From contig NC_005125.1 in the NCBI RefSeq assembly GCF_000011385.1, forward strand, positions 4,464,001 to 4,528,000: a stretch of DNA of 64,000 nt, given 5' to 3'. The position numbers and the translations under genes are program-made. Numbering within the stretch: the stretch's first letter is position 1; each line of letters begins with the position of its first letter. The stretch is from Gloeobacter violaceus PCC 7421 (GTDB taxonomy: Bacteria; Cyanobacteriota; Cyanobacteriia; Gloeobacterales; Gloeobacteraceae). A model generated the notes under the pieces. It saw only the letters and a program-made list of their open reading frames with translations, had not been told where the DNA came from and searched no databases. Below, piece by piece: positions 1,397 to 51,742 of the stretch.

Positions 1397-2065
1397 ATGC
1401 ACCTGGTCTACCTGCACGGCTTCGCCTCCGGCCCCAATTCCACCAAGGGCAGCTTCCTGAAGCGGCGGCTTGCCGAATTTGGATACGATCTGCACCAACC
1501 GGATCTCAACGCCCCCGCCTTTGAGGCGATGACCATCAGTTCACAACTGGCGGTGATTGCGCGCACCCTCGAAGGTCTGACAGGACCGGTCACCTTGTTG
1601 GGTTCAAGCATGGGGGGACTGCTGGCAGTGCTGCAGGCGACGCGCGATCCGCGCATCGAACGGCTGGTTTTGATGGCCCCGGCTTTCGGTTTTGCCCGGC
1701 GGTGGCAGGAGCGGCTCGGGGCGGCGGCGGTGGCCGAATGGCGCCGCAGCGGCAAGCTCGCGGTTTATCACTATGCCTACCGCCGCGAGTGCCGGCTCGG
1801 CTTCGAGATGCTCACCGACGCCCTCGGATACGACGAAGTGCAACCGCGCCGACCGGTGCCGACCCTGATCTTGCACGGTCGGCGCGACGAAGTGGTGGAC
1901 TTCGAACTCAGCCGCGCCTTTGCCGCCTCCCGGCCCAACGTCGCTTTGCGCCCCTACGATACCGATCACGCCATGATCGATGTCCTGGAGCCGATGTGGC
2001 AGGAAATCCGGGGCTTTTTAAAGCTCGAACGGCAGGGCGGATACCCTGCCGTTCGCAGCAGTTAA
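1397..2065 (+). CDS. YqiA/YcfP-like alpha/beta hydrolase
   Basis: A 222-residue alpha/beta-fold hydrolase. The start shows the family's YLHGFASGP oxyanion segment. The nucleophile elbow GSSMGG puts the catalytic serine at residue 71; D164 (GRRDEVV) and H191 (DTDHAM) complete the triad. The length fits the small YqiA/UPF0227 esterases, cytosolic hydrolases whose natural substrate is uncertain. It follows the DUF2808 gene closely on the same strand and runs convergently into the large minus-strand repeat protein. Confidence 0.85.
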   Translation: MHLVYLHGFASGPNSTKGSFLKRRLAEFGYDLHQPDLNAPAFEAMTISSQLAVIARTLEGLTGPVTLLGSSMGGLLAVLQATRDPRIERLVLMAPAFGFARRWQERLGAAAVAEWRRSGKLAVYHYAYRRECRLGFEMLTDALGYDEVQPRRPVPTLILHGRRDEVVDFELSRAFAASRPNVALRPYDTDHAMIDVLEPMWQEIRGFLKLERQGGYPAVRSS

Positions 2066-8370: not shown

Positions 8371-9899
8371 AGGGTGCCGACACGTACCACCCGCCCCACC
8401 GAGGGGACGCCGTCGGCGTTGAGGACATAGAGCAGGTAGTGCCCGGGGGGGGCAAGATTGCCGTTTGCCGGGGCGGTGACGGTGAGGGTGTTGCCCGAGC
8501 GGGTGAAGGTCAATTCGTTGAAGCGCTGATTTTCATTGAAGGCGTGGGTCACCGAGGAGAGACGCACCCAGGTGACGCGCCGGATATCGGCCGCCTCGGG
8601 GCTCTGGACGGTAAACGCCTGGCCGTAGCCCACAGAAATCGGCGCGGCGCTCACTGTGGGGCGCGGCCCACGAAACAGATAGGGCGGCGAATAAATTTCT
8701 GCACTCGGGCGGTAGGCCGATTCGCCACCCTGGCCGCCGCCTGCCGAGAGTACCCGGCCGTCCGGCAATAGCGCCGCTATCGAGTGATAAATGCGGGGAG
8801 TGGGCATGCTTGCGAGGGTGCTCCAGCTTTGGGTGGCCGGGTCCCACAGTTCGGCGGGCAGAGCGGGGGCGGTCTCCTCGTACCTGCCGGGCGAACTGTT
8901 GCCGCCGGTGGCGAGGATCGTGCCGTCCGGCAGCACCGTGAGGTTGTGGTGGCGGCGCGGGTAAGCCATCGATTCGACCTGCTGCCAGAGCGGGGAGGCG
9001 GCGTTCAGATCGATGATCTCGGTGGTGGCGGTGGGGGGCGGGCCGTACAGGTCGCCGCCGGCCCCCCCCGAGATGAGTACTTTGCCGGGAGCGTAACTCG
9101 CCGCCGAACCGTAGTCGCGCGTATCGTTAAAGTTCGTGTGCGCCACCGGGATCCAGCGGCCGGTACCGGTGGTGTCGAGGTAGCGGGTGTCCGGCTCCGG
9201 ACCGGCGTAGAAGACCTGGCCGTTGGGAGCGGCAAACATATACGGGTAGTAGCCGTACTTCAGCGAGTTGGTGCCGTCCGGCAGCTTTTGGGCGTCGACA
9301 AGATCCCGCCACCCCCCCGTCGTCTTCCAGATCTGGGGCATCTGATTGATGTTCTGGTAACCCGCGTAGGTTCCGGCGATCACGAGCACCTCGCCGTTGC
9401 CCAAAGTGGTGGTCGTCGGATACCACCGCCGGGCGATCATGTCCTGGACTTTGGTCCAACCCTGGGTGATGTGGTCGTAAATGGTCGTGTCCACCAGGCC
9501 GCGGTCGTCATCTAAATGGCCGCCGGTGACCAGCAACCGCCCGTCGGGCAAAAAGGCATGCCCGGAGCAAAAGACGTTGGTGGTGCTGTTGAGGATGTTG
9601 TTGTTGACGAAAGTGTCGCTTACCGGATCCCAAACGCGCGCTTGTGTGGTCTTGCCATCGACTTGATTCTCGTCCCAATCGCGACCCCAGGTGAGAACCT
9701 TGCCGTCGGGCAGTACGTGGGCGTGGATGGCGACAAAACCCCAATCTTTGGTCGCGCTCCAATGGCCGAGTATATCCGGATCTGCAGACTGGGCACGACT
9801 GCTTTGCACGACAGCAGTGCCAAGGCCCACAGAAAAAGCCGAAACGCCCGTCAAAAATGCAATCGCTTGAACCACGAGGCTGGAAGGAGATTTACGCAT
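7614..9899 (-). CDS. Galactose-oxidase/glyoxal-oxidase-like copper radical oxidase with FG-GAP tail
   Basis: A 761-residue exported protein with a signal peptide ending around residue 37 (SRAQSA). Residues ~45-410 form a seven-bladed Kelch-type propeller and ~415-508 an E-set domain of the DUF1929 type. The copper and radical residues of galactose oxidase have visible counterparts: C111 (VFCSG, thioether Cys), Y160 (RRWYP, cross-linked Tyr), Y371-H372 (RIYHS, axial Tyr and His) and H452 (VTHAFN). Spacings resemble those of the fungal enzyme. Residues ~515-761 are five FG-GAP-like repeats nearly identical to those of the gene at 2080-5031. The likely reaction is oxidation of a primary alcohol or aldehyde with O2 giving H2O2. 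The substrate is unknown. Confidence 0.88.
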   Translation of the reverse strand: MRKSPSSLVVQAIAFLTGVSAFSVGLGTAVVQSSRAQSADPDILGHWSATKDWGFVAIHAHVLPDGKVLTWGRDWDENQVDGKTTQARVWDPVSDTFVNNNILNSTTNVFCSGHAFLPDGRLLVTGGHLDDDRGLVDTTIYDHITQGWTKVQDMIARRWYPTTTTLGNGEVLVIAGTYAGYQNINQMPQIWKTTGGWRDLVDAQKLPDGTNSLKYGYYPYMFAAPNGQVFYAGPEPDTRYLDTTGTGRWIPVAHTNFNDTRDYGSAASYAPGKVLISGGAGGDLYGPPPTATTEIIDLNAASPLWQQVESMAYPRRHHNLTVLPDGTILATGGNSSPGRYEETAPALPAELWDPATQSWSTLASMPTPRIYHSIAALLPDGRVLSAGGGQGGESAYRPSAEIYSPPYLFRGPRPTVSAAPISVGYGQAFTVQSPEAADIRRVTWVRLSSVTHAFNENQRFNELTFTRSGNTLTVTAPANGNLAPPGHYLLYVLNADGVPSVGRVVRVGTLAPAGDFSGDRKSELVWRNGATGQNSLWLMNNTTFTQSVALPAVSDPNWLITGSGDFDNDGRPDLLWRNRATGENNLWLMNGTVYRTKVTLPLVGTAWQVGGVGDFDGDGRPDIFWRNPSTGQVSAWLMNGTQYLVSRALPSVIDPNWQLVAAGQFNNDAQADLLWRHKQTGANSVWLMSGTALAQSVALPAVSTAWQIGAAGDYNGDGKADIVWRDTTTGANAVWLMNGTAFVQSVGLSAVAAGWQLSGPR

Positions 9900-10239
9900 A
9901 AATTCTTCGGACTAAGGGGAGGAATTCGTCGCAAATTTATCAGCTGCAATTGGCCGGGGCGAGTTAGAAAAGGCGATTTTGAGCAAATTTCCGTGGATTT
10001 CGTACAAAAATGTGCCAACCACCGGCAGTGCTTACTCGGCTTTCGACCCTCTGAAAGCTGAATTATTCGCAGTTCCTATAGCAGTAAAAACACTGATTGT
10101 TCTGCACCATACCCCGTCGACGGCGGCGAGGGGTCAGGCCGGAAAACACCCGATTATCAACATATTATTCTTGAGCCGGCTCGCTGGATAATCGGCCATG
10201 GATTCGACTTTGTGATCAGATAATAGGGAAGCCCGCCCT
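9900..10239. other. Divergent intergenic region, 340 bp
   Basis: The region separates the minus-strand oxidase from the plus-strand GntR regulator and is more AT-rich than its flanks. It must carry both promoters, but no convincing -35/-10 pair stood out. Short TAAT-containing blocks occur at about 10188 and 10221. A possible 70-codon frame at 9979-10191 has no family resemblance and no ribosome-binding site, so it is not called. Confidence 0.4.
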
Positions 10240-11229
10240 GTGCAGATTCAAATGAAATTCCGATTTCAGCTCCAAAGCGACAGCGACGTGCCGGCATCGA
10301 CCCAGTTGCTCAATCAGATCAGTTTTGCCATCGCCTCACGCCAGTTTCCGCCGGGCTACCAGCTGCCCAGCACCCGTCAACTCGCCATGATCACCGGCCT
10401 GCACCGCAACACGATCAGCAAGGTCTATCACTTGTTGGAGGAAATGGGTCTGGTCGAAGCCCAGGCCGGTTCCGGGATCTATGTGAAGGCTCTGGGCGGA
10501 GTGGGCGCACGCGCCACGGCCTTGGAGCGTTTTCCCGAAGCGCGTGCGCTGGTGCAAAAGAGCCTCGATGCGCTTTTGGCCTGCGGCTGTTCGCTGGAGC
10601 AGGCGCGGGGCTTGTTTCTGGCGGAAATTGATTGGCGCCTGCGGTGCGGGGCGGTGCTGCTGGTGGCAGCCCCGGCGCGGGATCTGGGGTTGGGGGAGTT
10701 GATGAGTTGGGAGTTGAACCGGGCGCTCGGTATCCCGGTGCAGCGCGTGGCCCTCGAAGAACTCGACGCGGTGCTGGAACAGACCCGGGCCGGCACCGTG
10801 GTCACCAGCCGCTATCACCTGGCCCGGGCCGCTGCGGCAGCCGAGCCGCGGGGGATCCGGGTGTTGCCCCTCGACATCACCGACTTCAGCCGCGAACTGG
10901 CGTTGGTGGCGGCTCTACCCAAGGACAGCTGCCTGGGTCTGGTAAGCCTCAGTTCCGATTTGTTGAATGCGGTGGAGATGTTTCTGCACAGCCAGCACGG
11001 CGACGATGTCCTGGTGTTGACCACGCAACTGGAGGACACCCCTCGCCTGCGGGCGATCGTCCGCTCCGCTCAGCTCATCGTCACCGATCAGGCAAGCTAC
11101 GGGCCGGTCGCCCGACTCATCGAGAAGCTGCGCGCCGATCTGGTCCGCCCGCCGCAACTGGTCAGCTGCGGCGATTATCTGCAACCGGCCTCCGTCGCGG
11201 CGCTCAAGCGCGAACTGGGCCTGGGCTGA
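10240..11229 (+). CDS. GntR-family transcriptional regulator
   Basis: A 329-residue regulator. Residues ~15-85 are a GntR winged helix-turn-helix: QISFAIASRQFPPGYQLPSTRQLA and then LHRNTISKVYHLLEEMGLVEAQAGSGIYV. The C-terminal ~230 residues are an effector-binding region of the type seen in cyanobacterial GntR-like proteins, without aminotransferase features. The start is GTG at 10240; ATG at 10252 is possible. The deacetylase gene follows by 15 bases and is probably co-transcribed. The DNA target and ligand are unknown. Confidence 0.85.
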   Translation: MQIQMKFRFQLQSDSDVPASTQLLNQISFAIASRQFPPGYQLPSTRQLAMITGLHRNTISKVYHLLEEMGLVEAQAGSGIYVKALGGVGARATALERFPEARALVQKSLDALLACGCSLEQARGLFLAEIDWRLRCGAVLLVAAPARDLGLGELMSWELNRALGIPVQRVALEELDAVLEQTRAGTVVTSRYHLARAAAAAEPRGIRVLPLDITDFSRELALVAALPKDSCLGLVSLSSDLLNAVEMFLHSQHGDDVLVLTTQLEDTPRLRAIVRSAQLIVTDQASYGPVARLIEKLRADLVRPPQLVSCGDYLQPASVAALKRELGLG

Positions 11230-26367: not shown

Positions 26368-26504
26368 CAATGCCGACCGATTGGCAGAAAACCATGATCC
26401 CATTTCGAGAATAGAGAACCCTACCCAATCGAAAATTTCAGCGAAGCAATTTATGTTGATCGCGAGAGTGCTTTGACGGTAATTTAATATTTCATAGAGG
26501 TAAA

Positions 26505-27245
26505 ATGATGGAACAGTCTGAACGCAGGCAATATCCTAAGCCACCCATCATTGAAGCTCTCATTAATCTTCAGTTTGAGCTTGCTAAGCAACCCTCTATG
26601 GGAAGTATTTTTGAAATACGTAAATACATTGCTGATTCTTATCCGATAAAAGATGACATGTTCCGAGACAACGTCACGCTAAGTAGAGAGCCGATAAAAG
26701 CTGAGAGAGAGCACATTGGGTACCGCTTTGCAAGTTCAGACAACAAGCAAATTCTTCAAGCTCAAGTAAGTAGCTTTACCTTTAGTCGACTTGAGCCTTA
26801 TATTTCTTGGGAAAACCTGAGAGATGAGGCTCATCGTTTGTGGGGAATTTACTTAAAAACAGTTGATGCAGTAGACGTCAGTCAAGTTGCTGTAAGGTAC
26901 ATCAACAAAATTGATCTGCCGTTACCTATAAGAGACTTTAGAGATTATTTTCGGACGTATCCAGAACTCTCGTCAGACATGCCTGTTGGGCTTAGCGGGT
27001 ACTTAATGCAGATTCAAGTGCCTTATCAACTTCCAACGCAAGCTCAGCCGCCGATTATCACACTTAATCAAGCTTTAATGCAGCAAAATATTCCTGATGT
27101 TATTTCAGTATTGTTGGATATTGAGATTGCAAGCAAGATAGCAAATACAGATATACCTTGGGACATATTGGAAAATCTGCATTCTCTAGAGAATCAAGTA
27201 TTTGAAGCTTCTATTACCAACCGCACAAGAGGGCTATTCCACTAA
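26505..27245 (+). CDS. TIGR04255-family protein in AT-rich cassette
   Basis: A 246-residue protein of the sporadically distributed TIGR04255 type: N-terminal YPKPPIIEALINLQFE, then FTFSRLEPYISWENLRDEAHRLWGIYL and VSQVAVRYINKIDLP. No catalytic motif is known for the family. AGAGG precedes the start; ATG at 26508 is equally possible. Base composition is sharply AT-rich (a sampled 60-base stretch at 26581 has 20 G or C), unlike the GC-rich neighbours, which suggests recent acquisition. Its TAA overlaps the next ATG by one base (TAATG), implying coupled translation with the following gene. Confidence 0.75.
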   Translation: MMEQSERRQYPKPPIIEALINLQFELAKQPSMGSIFEIRKYIADSYPIKDDMFRDNVTLSREPIKAEREHIGYRFASSDNKQILQAQVSSFTFSRLEPYISWENLRDEAHRLWGIYLKTVDAVDVSQVAVRYINKIDLPLPIRDFRDYFRTYPELSSDMPVGLSGYLMQIQVPYQLPTQAQPPIITLNQALMQQNIPDVISVLLDIEIASKIANTDIPWDILENLHSLENQVFEASITNRTRGLFH

Positions 27246-27841
27246 TGCCTACAACAATCGACTCAGAAACCGAGCATAAGGGAATCTCTACAGCGTCATT
27301 TCTCCTTGTGAGCAGCAACCAGCCTTTTACTGGATTAGTAGCTCACTCTGGGCGCTATCAAACTCAAGCCTCGGCGGCCCGAGAGCTTGATGAAAAAAGA
27401 GAAGCAATTGATCAGCAAATCAGAGCTGCGCAAAGCGTACGTGTAGCTGAGGAGCTGCGTGCACAGGCAGTAAACTTGATTAAAGATATTATCCGAAGCA
27501 GTGACGTAGAGGATGCTTTGCATGCAGAGAATGCGCTGTATACTTTGTTAAGTGGCCGTGACGATATTTTGGGTATTATTGCGATGAGCAAAGCGGAATT
27601 CATCAATGTTCGTGCGATGGCTGCTCGCTTGTTTTTCGCAAACCCCGCATCTTATCCAAATAGTCAGAAAATCGATAGTTTACACAAGGCTCTTGAAAAA
27701 CACGATAGTCCTCTTATCCGTCTGGGGGTTGTACTTGGTCTGGCCGATGCAGGCGCTTGGGAGCAGGTAGAGAACTTTTCAGGAGATGCCCATCCCACGG
27801 TGGCAGAGCGAGCAAGGGAATTGCTTGATGAGGCGATGTAA
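27245..27841 (+). CDS. Hypothetical protein with HEAT-like C-terminus, second gene of AT-rich cassette
   Basis: A 198-residue protein of unrecognised family. The first ~60 residues are polar. Residues ~65-110 are predicted helical and rich in Ala, Glu and Gln (EKREAIDQQIRAAQSVRVAEE). The rest looks like paired alpha-helices of HEAT-repeat type (IRLGVVLGLADAGAWEQVEN, HPTVAERARELLDEA), usually a protein-binding scaffold. It starts on the TAATG junction with the TIGR04255 gene and overlaps the third gene by 14 bases. Function unknown. Confidence 0.72.
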   Translation: MPTTIDSETEHKGISTASFLLVSSNQPFTGLVAHSGRYQTQASAARELDEKREAIDQQIRAAQSVRVAEELRAQAVNLIKDIIRSSDVEDALHAENALYTLLSGRDDILGIIAMSKAEFINVRAMAARLFFANPASYPNSQKIDSLHKALEKHDSPLIRLGVVLGLADAGAWEQVENFSGDAHPTVAERARELLDEAM

Positions 27842-28397
27842 AGCAATTAGTTATTTACGGTTTCCGAGCAGAGAGCCCTCTCTTTTCCAGATTCCAGATG
27901 ATCCCGAGGCTTATTCAACTGCTGTTGAGGCTGCTTCTCTAGAGTTTGAGCCGCGCTCAGTAGATAGAGGGTGGCTATCTGTTTGGAAAGCTCAGTTTGA
28001 TTCAGAAGAAGAAAATATTCAAGCCGGTTTCGCTGCTCGACGGGAAAAGCAACAAACATTGATTTGTTTAAGGCTGCATCAAGATACTTTGAAAGATGCA
28101 GGCGTTATGATTAAGCACGAGCCAGATCAGAACACTTTTTCCTGTATTGCAAATATGCATTATTGTTTGCATTTGGAAGACCAATCGGTCAGAACAAAGC
28201 TAGTAAACGTCATCCTAGACAGGCTAAAATCAAATGTAATATGCAAGGACGATATTTGTTCAAGAGTAACAAAGGCAAGCATCATTCCATTGCTGCAAAA
28301 AGCATATGCTCGATGTTACTCCACGAATGCCAGCATTGATTTAAGTAAAGCTCAACAATGGGCTCAAGATGCTTTGAAAAGCAGTCCTCCTTCTTGA
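27828..28397 (+). CDS. Hypothetical protein, third gene of AT-rich cassette
   Basis: A 189-residue protein of unrecognised family. The chosen ATG at 27828 has AAGGGA upstream and lies inside the end of the previous gene; an in-frame ATG at 27786 would enlarge the overlap. The sequence is soluble, with several Cys and His residues in the second half (MHYCLHLED, VICKDDICSR), but no recognisable metal site. AT-rich codon use matches the two upstream genes. Function unknown. Confidence 0.7.
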   Translation: MRRCKAISYLRFPSREPSLFQIPDDPEAYSTAVEAASLEFEPRSVDRGWLSVWKAQFDSEEENIQAGFAARREKQQTLICLRLHQDTLKDAGVMIKHEPDQNTFSCIANMHYCLHLEDQSVRTKLVNVILDRLKSNVICKDDICSRVTKASIIPLLQKAYARCYSTNASIDLSKAQQWAQDALKSSPPS

Positions 28398-28404
28398 GAG
28401 GACT
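28383..28404 (+). terminator. Possible weak terminator closing the AT-rich cassette
   Basis: AGTCCTC (28383-28389) pairs perfectly with GAGGACT (28398-28404) around an 8-base loop containing the stop codon; the tail is TAATAATTT rather than a T run. It may stop transcription of the cassette. Confidence 0.35.
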
Positions 28405-28453
28405 TAATAATTTAGATGACTTGGATTGAGTGGGCGATAAGTGCTGACTTCAC

Positions 28454-29050
28454 CTATATTCCGCTGTAGCGCTCCTCGGCAAACGGTTCGCCCCGGCGGT
28501 GGTAGCCGTTCACTTCCCAGAAGCCCAGTTGCTCCTGCTCGGTAAATTCCAGGCCGTTGATCCACTTGGCGCTTTTCCAGGCGTACAGGTGGGGCACCAC
28601 CAGCCGCATCGGCCCGCCGTGCTCGGTCGGTAGCGGTTCGCCAAATAGCTCGTAGGCAAAGAAATTTTCTTCGCGCGCAAAATCTTCGAAGGCGATGTTG
28701 GTGGTGTAGCCGCCGTAGCAATGGGCGAGGACATGCTTGGCTTTGGGATCGATTTCGACGAGTTTGAGAAAATCGGTGACCCGGATACCGGTCCACTGCA
28801 CGTCGAGCTTGCTCCAGCGCGTCACACAGTGAAAATCGGCGGTGAACTGGCTTTTGGGCGTGGCCACAAAGTCGTCCCAACTGAAGACTTTTTCTTTTGC
28901 CAGTCCCCAGACTTTGAAGCGCCACACAAACGAGGCCATGTCCGGCGTGCGGCCGTAGGTCAGCACCGGAAATCCGTTGGTCAGATACTGTCCGGGGGGC
29001 ACGCGGTCGTTGCGCTCCGCGTCGGGCTTTTTGAAAAACTTGCCAAGCAT
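28454..29050 (-). CDS. Sulfite-oxidase-like molybdopterin enzyme
   Basis: A 198-residue protein of the oxidoreductase molybdopterin-binding (sulfite oxidase/YedY-like) fold. The molybdenum-coordinating cysteine is C75 in HCVTRWSKLDVQWTG; LAHCYGGYTTNIAFED and GGPMRLVVPHLYAWKSAKW complete the pterin-binding pattern. No twin-arginine signal is visible, so it is probably cytosolic. Substrate unknown. A molybdate uptake operon is encoded elsewhere in the window. Confidence 0.88.
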   Translation of the reverse strand: MLGKFFKKPDAERNDRVPPGQYLTNGFPVLTYGRTPDMASFVWRFKVWGLAKEKVFSWDDFVATPKSQFTADFHCVTRWSKLDVQWTGIRVTDFLKLVEIDPKAKHVLAHCYGGYTTNIAFEDFAREENFFAYELFGEPLPTEHGGPMRLVVPHLYAWKSAKWINGLEFTEQEQLGFWEVNGYHRRGEPFAEERYSGI

Positions 29051-49847: not shown

Positions 49848-50441
49848 ATGATGCACCCAGAACTGCGCGATCCCACAGCGGCCATGCCGGAGCAACGACT
49901 CACCCTCTACGGAGTGAGCTGGCAGGAGTACGAGATCTTGGGAGCAACCCTGTCCGATCGCCCGGGATTGCGGATGACCTATCTGGAAGGAACACTGGAG
50001 ATCATGACCACCTCCCGTGAGCACGAGGCGCTGAAGACTACCATTGCGCGTCTTATCGAAGCTTATGCGGAAGAAATGGATATCGATCTCAATGGGTACG
50101 GCTCGATGACCTTCAAAAAAGCGGCCAGACAGCGGGGTCTGGAGCCGGACGAATGCTACTGTGTCGGCGCCATGGGCGACATTCCGGATATTGCCCTCGA
50201 AGTGGTCATTACCAGCGGCGGCATCGACAAGCTGCGGGTCTACGCGGGACTGCGGGTGCCGGAGGTGTGGTTCTGGCAGGACGGCGTTTTTTCGCTGTAT
50301 CACCTCGAAGGCTCCGAGTATCTGCCGATTGCAAGCAGCCGATTTTTGCCGCAACTAGATTTGCCAAACCTGAACCCATTTGTCGATCCCAACAACCAGA
50401 CCCAGGCGGTCAAAACCTACCGCCGAACACTTCGTGCTTGA
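49848..50441 (+). CDS. Uma2-family (DUF820) endonuclease-like protein
   Basis: A 197-residue protein with the PD-(D/E)XK-like Uma2 fold: MTYLEGTLEIMTTSREHEALK, then DIALEVVITSGGIDKLRVYAGLRVPEVWFW with the catalytic D, E and K in order. Members are abundant in cyanobacterial genomes and are predicted nucleases of unknown role. ATG at 49848 (or 49851) is chosen; the frame is open to 49722. Confidence 0.88.
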   Translation: MMHPELRDPTAAMPEQRLTLYGVSWQEYEILGATLSDRPGLRMTYLEGTLEIMTTSREHEALKTTIARLIEAYAEEMDIDLNGYGSMTFKKAARQRGLEPDECYCVGAMGDIPDIALEVVITSGGIDKLRVYAGLRVPEVWFWQDGVFSLYHLEGSEYLPIASSRFLPQLDLPNLNPFVDPNNQTQAVKTYRRTLRA

Positions 50442-50784
50442 TCTCCCGCCTTGGGCGAACTCGGCGGACCTTGCCGGAAGGCTGCCCGCTTCGGTTAAGT
50501 TTTTTGCAACTTCGGCGCCGGTTTGATTAGACTCATTCAAGATTAGGTTGTGTCTTCAACTGCAGCCTGTCCACCGAACGCATCGCTGTTGTTCACCGGC
50601 ATTTTGTGTGTCCTGCTTTTTCGCGATGACGACCGGTAGCTATGGACTGGTTGTATTCGATAACAACTGTCTGATTTCTTGCCGAGAGAGCCATTGACTT
50701 CTGGGGCATTGTTCCTGGGAGCGCTGTCGGTGGATCGCATCTGTGAATTGGCAAGTTCCAATTGCCCAATAAGGAGTTGAAATC
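50442..50784. other. Intergenic region before the ferritin-like gene, 343 bp
   Basis: No gene is recognised. AATTGG (50746-50751) and CCAATT (50758-50763) form a perfect 6-bp inverted repeat around a 6-base loop, 6 bases before the AAGGAG ribosome-binding site of the ferritin-like gene. It could be an operator or a translation-controlling hairpin. TTGACT occurs at about 50694 without a convincing -10. Confidence 0.45.
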
Positions 50785-51357
50785 ATGGCCAAAGTAGCAC
50801 GCGAGATGGTAGAAAAATCCGGCGTCAACGTCGATGAACTCGTCGCAAAGCTAGTACGCGCCGCTTCTGCGGAGTTTACAACCTACTATTACTACACGCT
50901 GCTGCGCGCCCACGCGATCGGCTTTGAAGGTGAGGGACTCAAGGAGATCATCGAGGATGCCCGCCTGGAGGACCGCAACCACTTCGAAGCGCTTTTCCCG
51001 CGCATCTACGAGTTGGGTGGAGATCTGCCCCGCGACATCCGCGATTTTTCTGATATGGCGGCCTGCGCCGATGCGTATCTGCCTGACAACCCAAACGATG
51101 CCCGACAGCTCCTGGGGGTCTTAGTCGAAGCGGAGCGGTGCGCTATCCGCGTCTACACCGAAATTTGCGACATGACCTTCGGCAAAGATCACCGCACCTA
51201 CGAGTTGGCCCTGGCTATCTTGAACGAGGAAATTGAGCACGAAGCGTGGTTCAGTGAATTTTTGGGCGAAGGGCCTTCCGGCCACTTCCGGCGCGGCACC
51301 CCAGGCGAATCGCCCTACACCAGCCGCTTCCTGGTCGTGCCGAACGGCCACAACTAG
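50785..51357 (+). CDS. Ferritin-like protein of the DPS-like (DPSL) type
   Basis: A 190-residue four-helix protein with two E..ExxH-type di-iron motifs: E30 and E62/H66 (LEDRNHFEA) in the first half, E117 and E148-H152 (EEIEHEAW) in the second. C119 and C128 flank E126, resembling the paired cysteines near the ferroxidase site of DPS-like proteins. Such proteins oxidise iron with H2O2 and protect DNA. AAGGAG precedes the ATG. The Rieske gene follows by 7 bases. Confidence 0.8.
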
Positions 51358-51364
51358 GCGGCCG

Positions 51365-51742
51365 GTGCAGTACCTCGCCGTGGCCTACACCCGGGATATC
51401 CCGGCCGGCCGGGTATACCCGGTGCTGGTGGGGGGACGGGAGCTGATTCTTGTCCGCGACGGGCAGGACAATGTATACGCCCTGGACGGCCTCTGTCCCC
51501 ACCGGCACCTGCCCCTGGCGGGGGCCGAGGTCTGGAAGGGAGTGCTCGAATGCCCCTGGCACCACTTCCAGTACGACGTGCGCACCGGGGAGAATCTCTA
51601 TCCGCGCCGGGTCTATCCGGCGCAATTGGCTGCCCGCCTCGGCGACCATGTCCGTCCCCTGCGCATTTACCCAGTGCGCACAGTCGATGAGCAAATCCAG
51701 GTGGGGATGCCGGAGGCAGGCGGAACCCCACGGTTCCCTTGA
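51365..51742 (+). CDS. Rieske [2Fe-2S] protein
   Basis: A 125-residue single-domain protein. The cluster ligands are C44-x-H46 (CPHRH) and C63-x2-H66 (CPWHH), and a YALDGLCPHRHLPLAG context is typical of ferredoxin components of oxygenases or nitrite-reductase-type small subunits. The start is GTG at 51365, 7 bases after the ferritin-like gene. It probably carries electrons to an unidentified partner. Confidence 0.88.
   Translation: MQYLAVAYTRDIPAGRVYPVLVGGRELILVRDGQDNVYALDGLCPHRHLPLAGAEVWKGVLECPWHHFQYDVRTGENLYPRRVYPAQLAARLGDHVRPLRIYPVRTVDEQIQVGMPEAGGTPRFP

Follow-up and report, generated by a model that had tools for sequence, protein, structure and literature searches.

The window analysed here is a stretch of 64,000 nt from the genome of Gloeobacter violaceus PCC 7421, in which three closely packed plus-strand genes lie in DNA much richer in AT than its surroundings. 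A first-pass annotation, made from the letters alone, had read these genes as a horizontally acquired, translationally coupled cassette of defence, toxin or signalling type. The locus raises the questions of where the genes came from, whether they belong together and what they do. The segment and its genes, P1 to P3, are as follows:

26376..28454, no strand, acquired segment; empty site in sister genomes; GC 0.427 vs 0.627
26505..27245, plus strand, P1, 246 aa; NCBIfam TIGR04255; constant subunit, proposed chaperone-like adaptor or antitoxin sensor
27245..27841, plus strand, P2, 198 aa; weakly HEAT-like; slot of the antitoxin-like gene (g2), by position, coupling and size
27828..28397, plus strand, P3, 189 aa; slot of the toxin-like gene (g3); W-type g3 family member

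Acquisition of the segment and its three genes

The acquired segment is about 2.08 kb in length (about 26376-28454), slightly larger than the 26440-28404 of the first-pass annotation. Its GC content is 0.427, whereas the other 2-kb windows of the 64 kb have a mean of 0.627 (sd 0.022, minimum 0.571), and the AT-richness that had been noted against the GC-rich flanks therefore holds over the whole cassette. The values for P1, P2 and P3 were 0.404, 0.481 and 0.416, with GC3 of 0.36, 0.42 and 0.34, respectively. Milder GC dips (0.54-0.57) were also seen at about 9501-10500 and about 50001-51500 of the window.

The insert is flanked by rsgA and a molybdopterin-oxidoreductase-like gene, which are convergent, so that it lies between their stop codons. 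The same two genes directly adjoin in three sister genomes, leaving a clean empty site; the flanks of two of these (L127 and L128) are about 93% identical to the window and those of the third (L129) about 74%, and the alignments break at about 26376 and 28454. Since the more distant sister also lacks the segment, insertion is likelier than repeated loss. Horizontal acquisition, which had been proposed from base composition, is thus demonstrated by the empty sites. This genome harbours one TIGR04255 gene and the sister genomes harbour 3, 1 and 0, located at sites other than that of the window's cassette. At the ends of the insert, AATGCCG (26369-26375) and TATTCCG (28456-28462) show an imperfect similarity over 6-7 nt, and the empty site in the sisters carries AATGCCG; these may be what is left of a short target duplication that has diverged, or a chance likeness. 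No terminal inverted repeats were found at the insert ends.

The ORF coordinates agree with a coupled unit, the overlaps being 1 nt for P1/P2 and 14 nt for P2/P3, and the P3 start at 27828 is consistent with the starts of its homologues. Against NCBIfam, P1 matched TIGR04255 over model positions 1-251 of 252 (E 2.2e-45, 155 bits, cut-off 30). With a score far above the curated cut-off, it is a full-length protein of the family that the earlier reading had named. The entry, 'sporadTIGR04255', as returned gives a name and no function. In Pfam P1 was assigned to no family, and it showed no SecB homology by sequence and no recognised DNA-binding domain.

The other two proteins had been described as without recognised family, and this holds. 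P2 matched Pfam HEAT_2 below threshold (E 0.002; 18.8 bits, cut-off 27.7), which falls short of the 'HEAT-like scaffold' suggested for it, and P3 matched no known family and no known toxin family in the Pfam, NCBIfam and PADLOC models. Partial and inconsistent weak hits of P2 to CARF models (PADLOC, E 5.7e-4) and of P3 to Cas3d (PADLOC, 0.011) and TFSII (NCBIfam, 0.033) were taken as chance, and the predicted structure of P3 was unusable (pLDDT 54). Queried as single sequences, neither P2 nor P3 had a match in 194 cyanobacterial genomes or plasmids, and P3 likewise had none in genome_contigs and viral contigs; its remote relatives came from profiles only.

TIGR04255 loci in other genomes and the exchange of gene pairs

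TIGR04255 homologues were drawn from cyanobacterial genomes, plasmids, genome_contigs (80 loci, many phyla) and viral contigs, and the 89 other loci with enough downstream sequence were examined for the layout TIGR04255, coupled second gene (g2), third gene (g3). The results showed this layout at 88 of the 89 loci, compared with 19 of 471 other genes of the same loci that were put through the same test as controls. One locus (L019), where g3 begins 136 nt beyond g2, was still scored as coupled, since this g3 clearly belongs to the family of P3. The g2 products range from 82 to 231 aa (median 166) and the g3 products from 75 to 211 aa (median 149); a 4-nt overlap is the commonest TIGR04255/g2 junction (46 cases), and a fourth gene of at least 100 aa follows closely behind g3 in 8 loci. 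At 85 of 86 loci the cassette has a higher AT content than its flanks (46.5% vs 54.0% GC, paired p 6e-30), and TIGR04255 is patchy in its presence (10 of 194 cyanobacterial genomes), which together with the empty sites shows that the module is mobile. A shared palindrome or conserved operator was looked for upstream of the TIGR04255 cassettes and none was found.

Individual loci gave some further observations. In L016 and L017 (G101:C7) the TIGR04255 gene is interrupted by an internal stop and reads as two overlapping fragments; this copy appears to be decaying. Within about 6 kb of TIGR04255 there are an argonaute-like gene, cas6 and a VapC toxin gene on the Thermus brockianus plasmid pTB1 (L005), and restriction-modification genes on a Crinalium plasmid (L003).

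P3 belongs to one of the g3 families obtained in this way, the W-type. It scored 26.6 bits against the profile of the other W-type g3, while shuffled P3 reached at most 4.8 and the next best other g3 2.5, and it matched a four-member profile with E 4.8e-7. The invariant columns are S51, W53, I64 and H111 (P3 numbering); the cysteines, by which P3 had been characterised in the first-pass annotation, are not conserved. The W-type group was found in 5 of 386 cyanobacterial genomes, and in all 5 it stands beside TIGR04255; with the coupling at 88 of 89 loci, this means that the partners do not occur singly at random loci. Against other g2, P2 scored 5.3 bits, which is not significant, as shuffles reached 5.0; it resembles the W-type g2 in position, size and weak HEAT-like character.

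Clustering gave at least seven groups of g3, each with its own kinds of g2. The g2 and g3 genes are thus a matched unit that is swapped together, and TIGR04255 is the constant part; the fixed trio of TIGR04255, HEAT-like and Cys-containing proteins proposed earlier gives way to a constant first gene with an exchangeable pair behind it. On the TIGR04255 tree, which is poorly resolved, the g3 types are clustered (24 changes against a shuffled mean of 56) and have been exchanged several times. The P1 of the window falls outside the clade of the other P3-type cassettes, and this position weakly hints that its g2/g3 pair, too, may have been exchanged.

Candidate toxins and antitoxins in the exchangeable pair

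Pfam analysis of 87 g3 products found DUF7689 in 16, HEPN in 5, PIN in 1, PemK/MazF in 1 and zeta in 1. The HEPN-type cases form one group on the TIGR04255 tree, and the single PIN and zeta cases (the zeta-like toxin is at L004) could be chance neighbours. The MazF case (L086) has the clearest identity: its g3 is MazF (E 4.5e-34), and residues 53-94 of its g2 align with 48-87 of the 87 model positions of MazE (E 3.4e-7), so that the part of MazE found at the end of this g2 is the C-terminal half only. The N-terminal half of MazE is its DNA-binding part. Unlike ordinary MazEF, L086 has a tag in place of the MazE N-terminal half and a TIGR04255 gene in front.

Those g3 that can be recognised are a toxin, a toxin-typical family or DUF7689, and by this analogy g3 would be the toxin slot, as in type II toxin-antitoxin systems; P3 matches none of the known-family toxins of the other cassettes (MazF, HEPN, PIN, zeta). 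The two largest g3 groups, YRsv and DUF7689, contain no characterised toxin. The family of P3 contains none either, so P3 is called a putative toxin, and P2 its putative antitoxin, by position and analogy. At the level of the whole cassette, the earlier interpretation stands in so far as the genes are acquired, coupled and, judging from the g3 of other cassettes, probably of toxin or defence type; its fixed trio, HEAT scaffold and conserved cysteines do not.

Another arrangement was seen at L146 (G024), where a QGDLL-type g3 (about 1501-2031, plus strand) has a small gene in front and, before that, a gene for a protein of about 260 aa. This protein, not a recognised TIGR04255, is of comparable size and, as judged by eye, looks alike in its pattern of strands and helices; it may represent a second, diverged accessory family.

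The g2 gene would be the antitoxin slot. A short motif, roughly G-[ILVMF]-[SG]-x-[ED]-[SA]-x-x-[LIV], recurs in the first 40 or so residues of g2 from families whose C-terminal parts differ. The strict pattern was found in 12 of 89 g2, against a mean of 0.1 and a maximum of 2 in shuffles, and in 0 of 88 g3. Since it was drawn up after the sequences had been viewed, a profile comparison between families is the fairer test, and here cross-family matches of at least 4 bits were obtained for 12 of 74, against 6 of 1480 shuffled. These values weakly suggest an N-terminal tag common to several g2 families and present in a minority of g2. P2 has no clear tag, its GISTASFLL at residues 13-21 fitting the motif only loosely. 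A VapB-like tail of the g2 of L112 was a likeness by eye only, for which a search found nothing.

The DUF7689 genes allow a comparison of antitoxin candidates with and without TIGR04255. There are 13 cyanobacterial loci in which DUF7689 occurs without TIGR04255, as judged over about 1.5 kb on either side, and the same partner domain lies just upstream in all of them. The partner profile made from the TIGR04255 cassettes spans the N-terminal 40 or so residues; in most of the 13 TIGR04255-free partners the match to it starts at position 36-48, and in three at 15-24, therefore the N-terminal tag is missing in most of them. At L134 the N-terminus of the partner is instead DUF433 (E 2.6e-22), which is a known antitoxin family of PIN toxins and is abundant in cyanobacteria (PMC2701414, PMC3834315, PMC4963859). 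A ribbon-helix-helix N-terminus at L136 and L137 and a Phd-like one at L133 were seen by eye, and Pfam gave no confirmation. These DUF7689 pairs with 'HPAYQ.IIGMG' partners (L132-L144) look like an undescribed two-gene toxin-antitoxin family.

A proposed role for TIGR04255 and its alternatives

The cassette is probably a variant of a mobile toxin-antitoxin module with three components, where TIGR04255 would help the antitoxin by way of the antitoxin's N-terminus. In such a module g3 (here P3) would be the toxin, g2 (here P2) its dedicated antitoxin and g1 (TIGR04255) the constant accessory protein, which would bind the N-terminal segment of the antitoxin and keep it folded and stable; when TIGR04255 is lost or titrated, for example by a phage product or under stress, the antitoxin would decay and the toxin would be freed. 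We infer the binding, the chaperone-like action, the trigger, the toxicity and a part in phage defence.

The closest known systems are the TAC modules (Mtb HigBA1-SecBTA and CmdTAC), in which a SecB-like chaperone recognises a segment added to antitoxins from families unrelated to one another, and the toxin is set free when a phage capsid protein titrates the chaperone (PMC5105189, PMC11618068). The TIGR04255 cassettes are alike in that a third protein accompanies unrelated toxin-antitoxin families and in that the antitoxins have an extra terminal segment missing in stand-alone relatives (PMC5105189, PMC11618068). They differ in that TIGR04255 is not SecB by sequence, in that it is the first gene, in that the segment linked to it is N-terminal whereas the chaperone-addiction extension of TAC is C-terminal, and in that the antitoxin, at least in the MazE case, is without its N-terminal half. 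The omega-epsilon-zeta system and the PaaR2-headed operon share the three-gene order, with an accessory gene first and then antitoxin and toxin, and one TIGR04255 locus, L004, has a zeta-like toxin as the former does. Their first genes encode DNA-binding repressors, omega in the one and PaaR2 in the other, whereas TIGR04255 has no recognised DNA-binding domain. The repressor role of PaaR2 has been described (PMC8630535).

An AF2 model of P1 (pLDDT 94.1) predicts two similar halves of strands and helices. Its fold matches to phosphagen kinase/McsB (Z up to 8.8), to AdoMetDC/prozyme and to TBP (Foldseek E 2e-3, VIA Z 6.9, TM 0.3-0.46) are all weak and cover a common arrangement, and because of this no homology is claimed from them. 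SecB is absent from the fold lists obtained for this model, an absence that does not exclude a SecB fold, and sequence searches of the PDB gave nothing useful.

These comparisons bring in the alternative that TIGR04255 is a trans-acting DNA-binding regulator of the operon, serving an antitoxin without a DNA-binding domain of its own. A regulator-antitoxin-toxin gene order, the loss at L086 of what in MazE is the DNA-binding half, the other N-terminal parts on TIGR04255-free DUF7689 partners and the TBP-like matches of P1 would all agree with it. We nevertheless regard it as unlikely: the TBP match is weak, the TIGR04255 family is mostly acidic (mean charge -5.3), no conserved palindrome was found upstream, and in L155 (G386) and L156 (G388), from sister Gloeobacter, TIGR04255 precedes an antitoxin-like gene with its own HTH_3 above threshold. 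Because of the acidity, the missing palindrome and the HTH_3 partners, a chaperone-like role is preferred, short of proof, to a DNA-binding one. The third gene of L155 and L156 contains 'THDCDL', a motif resembling the 'TQSCDL' found in QGDLL-type g3.

The same genes could also make up a defence or signalling unit other than toxin-antitoxin, with TIGR04255 as the sensor of a trigger, g2 as an adaptor and g3 as an effector that stays inactive until triggered. Exchangeable effectors behind a constant sensor would give the same picture, and the nuclease folds among the g3 families and the patchy, mobile distribution suit this too, but the MazE/MazF pair and the DUF433 fusion are toxin-antitoxin parts and the DUF7689 pairs occur without TIGR04255; we consider this explanation rather improbable. 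Hardly any weight is left for a chance cluster of unrelated hypothetical genes acquired together without joint function: the lack of any detectable homologue of P2 and the remoteness of those of P3 would suit it, but the co-occurrence of 88/89 against 19/471 already contradicts it and, in cyanobacteria, the P3 family is found only beside TIGR04255.

The preferred three-component toxin-antitoxin module can be extended, more tentatively, to a general reading: TIGR04255 might be a common non-SecB chaperone-like platform that captured many unrelated toxin-antitoxin pairs through a short tag at the antitoxin N-terminus and, through its own titration, senses phage or stress. In the open-access papers that were searched, we found no published description of such three-part TIGR04255 systems and no mention of TIGR04255 or DUF7689. 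What is new here is the fixed place of TIGR04255 at the head of a g2-g3 pair. This gives TIGR04255, an unassigned family sporadic in many phyla, a testable role, and marks several unassigned protein families as likely toxin/antitoxin pairs. If the platform reading is true, the P3 family, YRsv/EYF/NRxSE, QGDLL and DUF7689 would represent several new families of toxins. Should TIGR04255 work as proposed, the 'chaperone addiction' of antitoxins would have arisen on more than one occasion, each time with partner proteins unrelated to the others, and the swapping of cassettes would show how one sensor can control many toxins.
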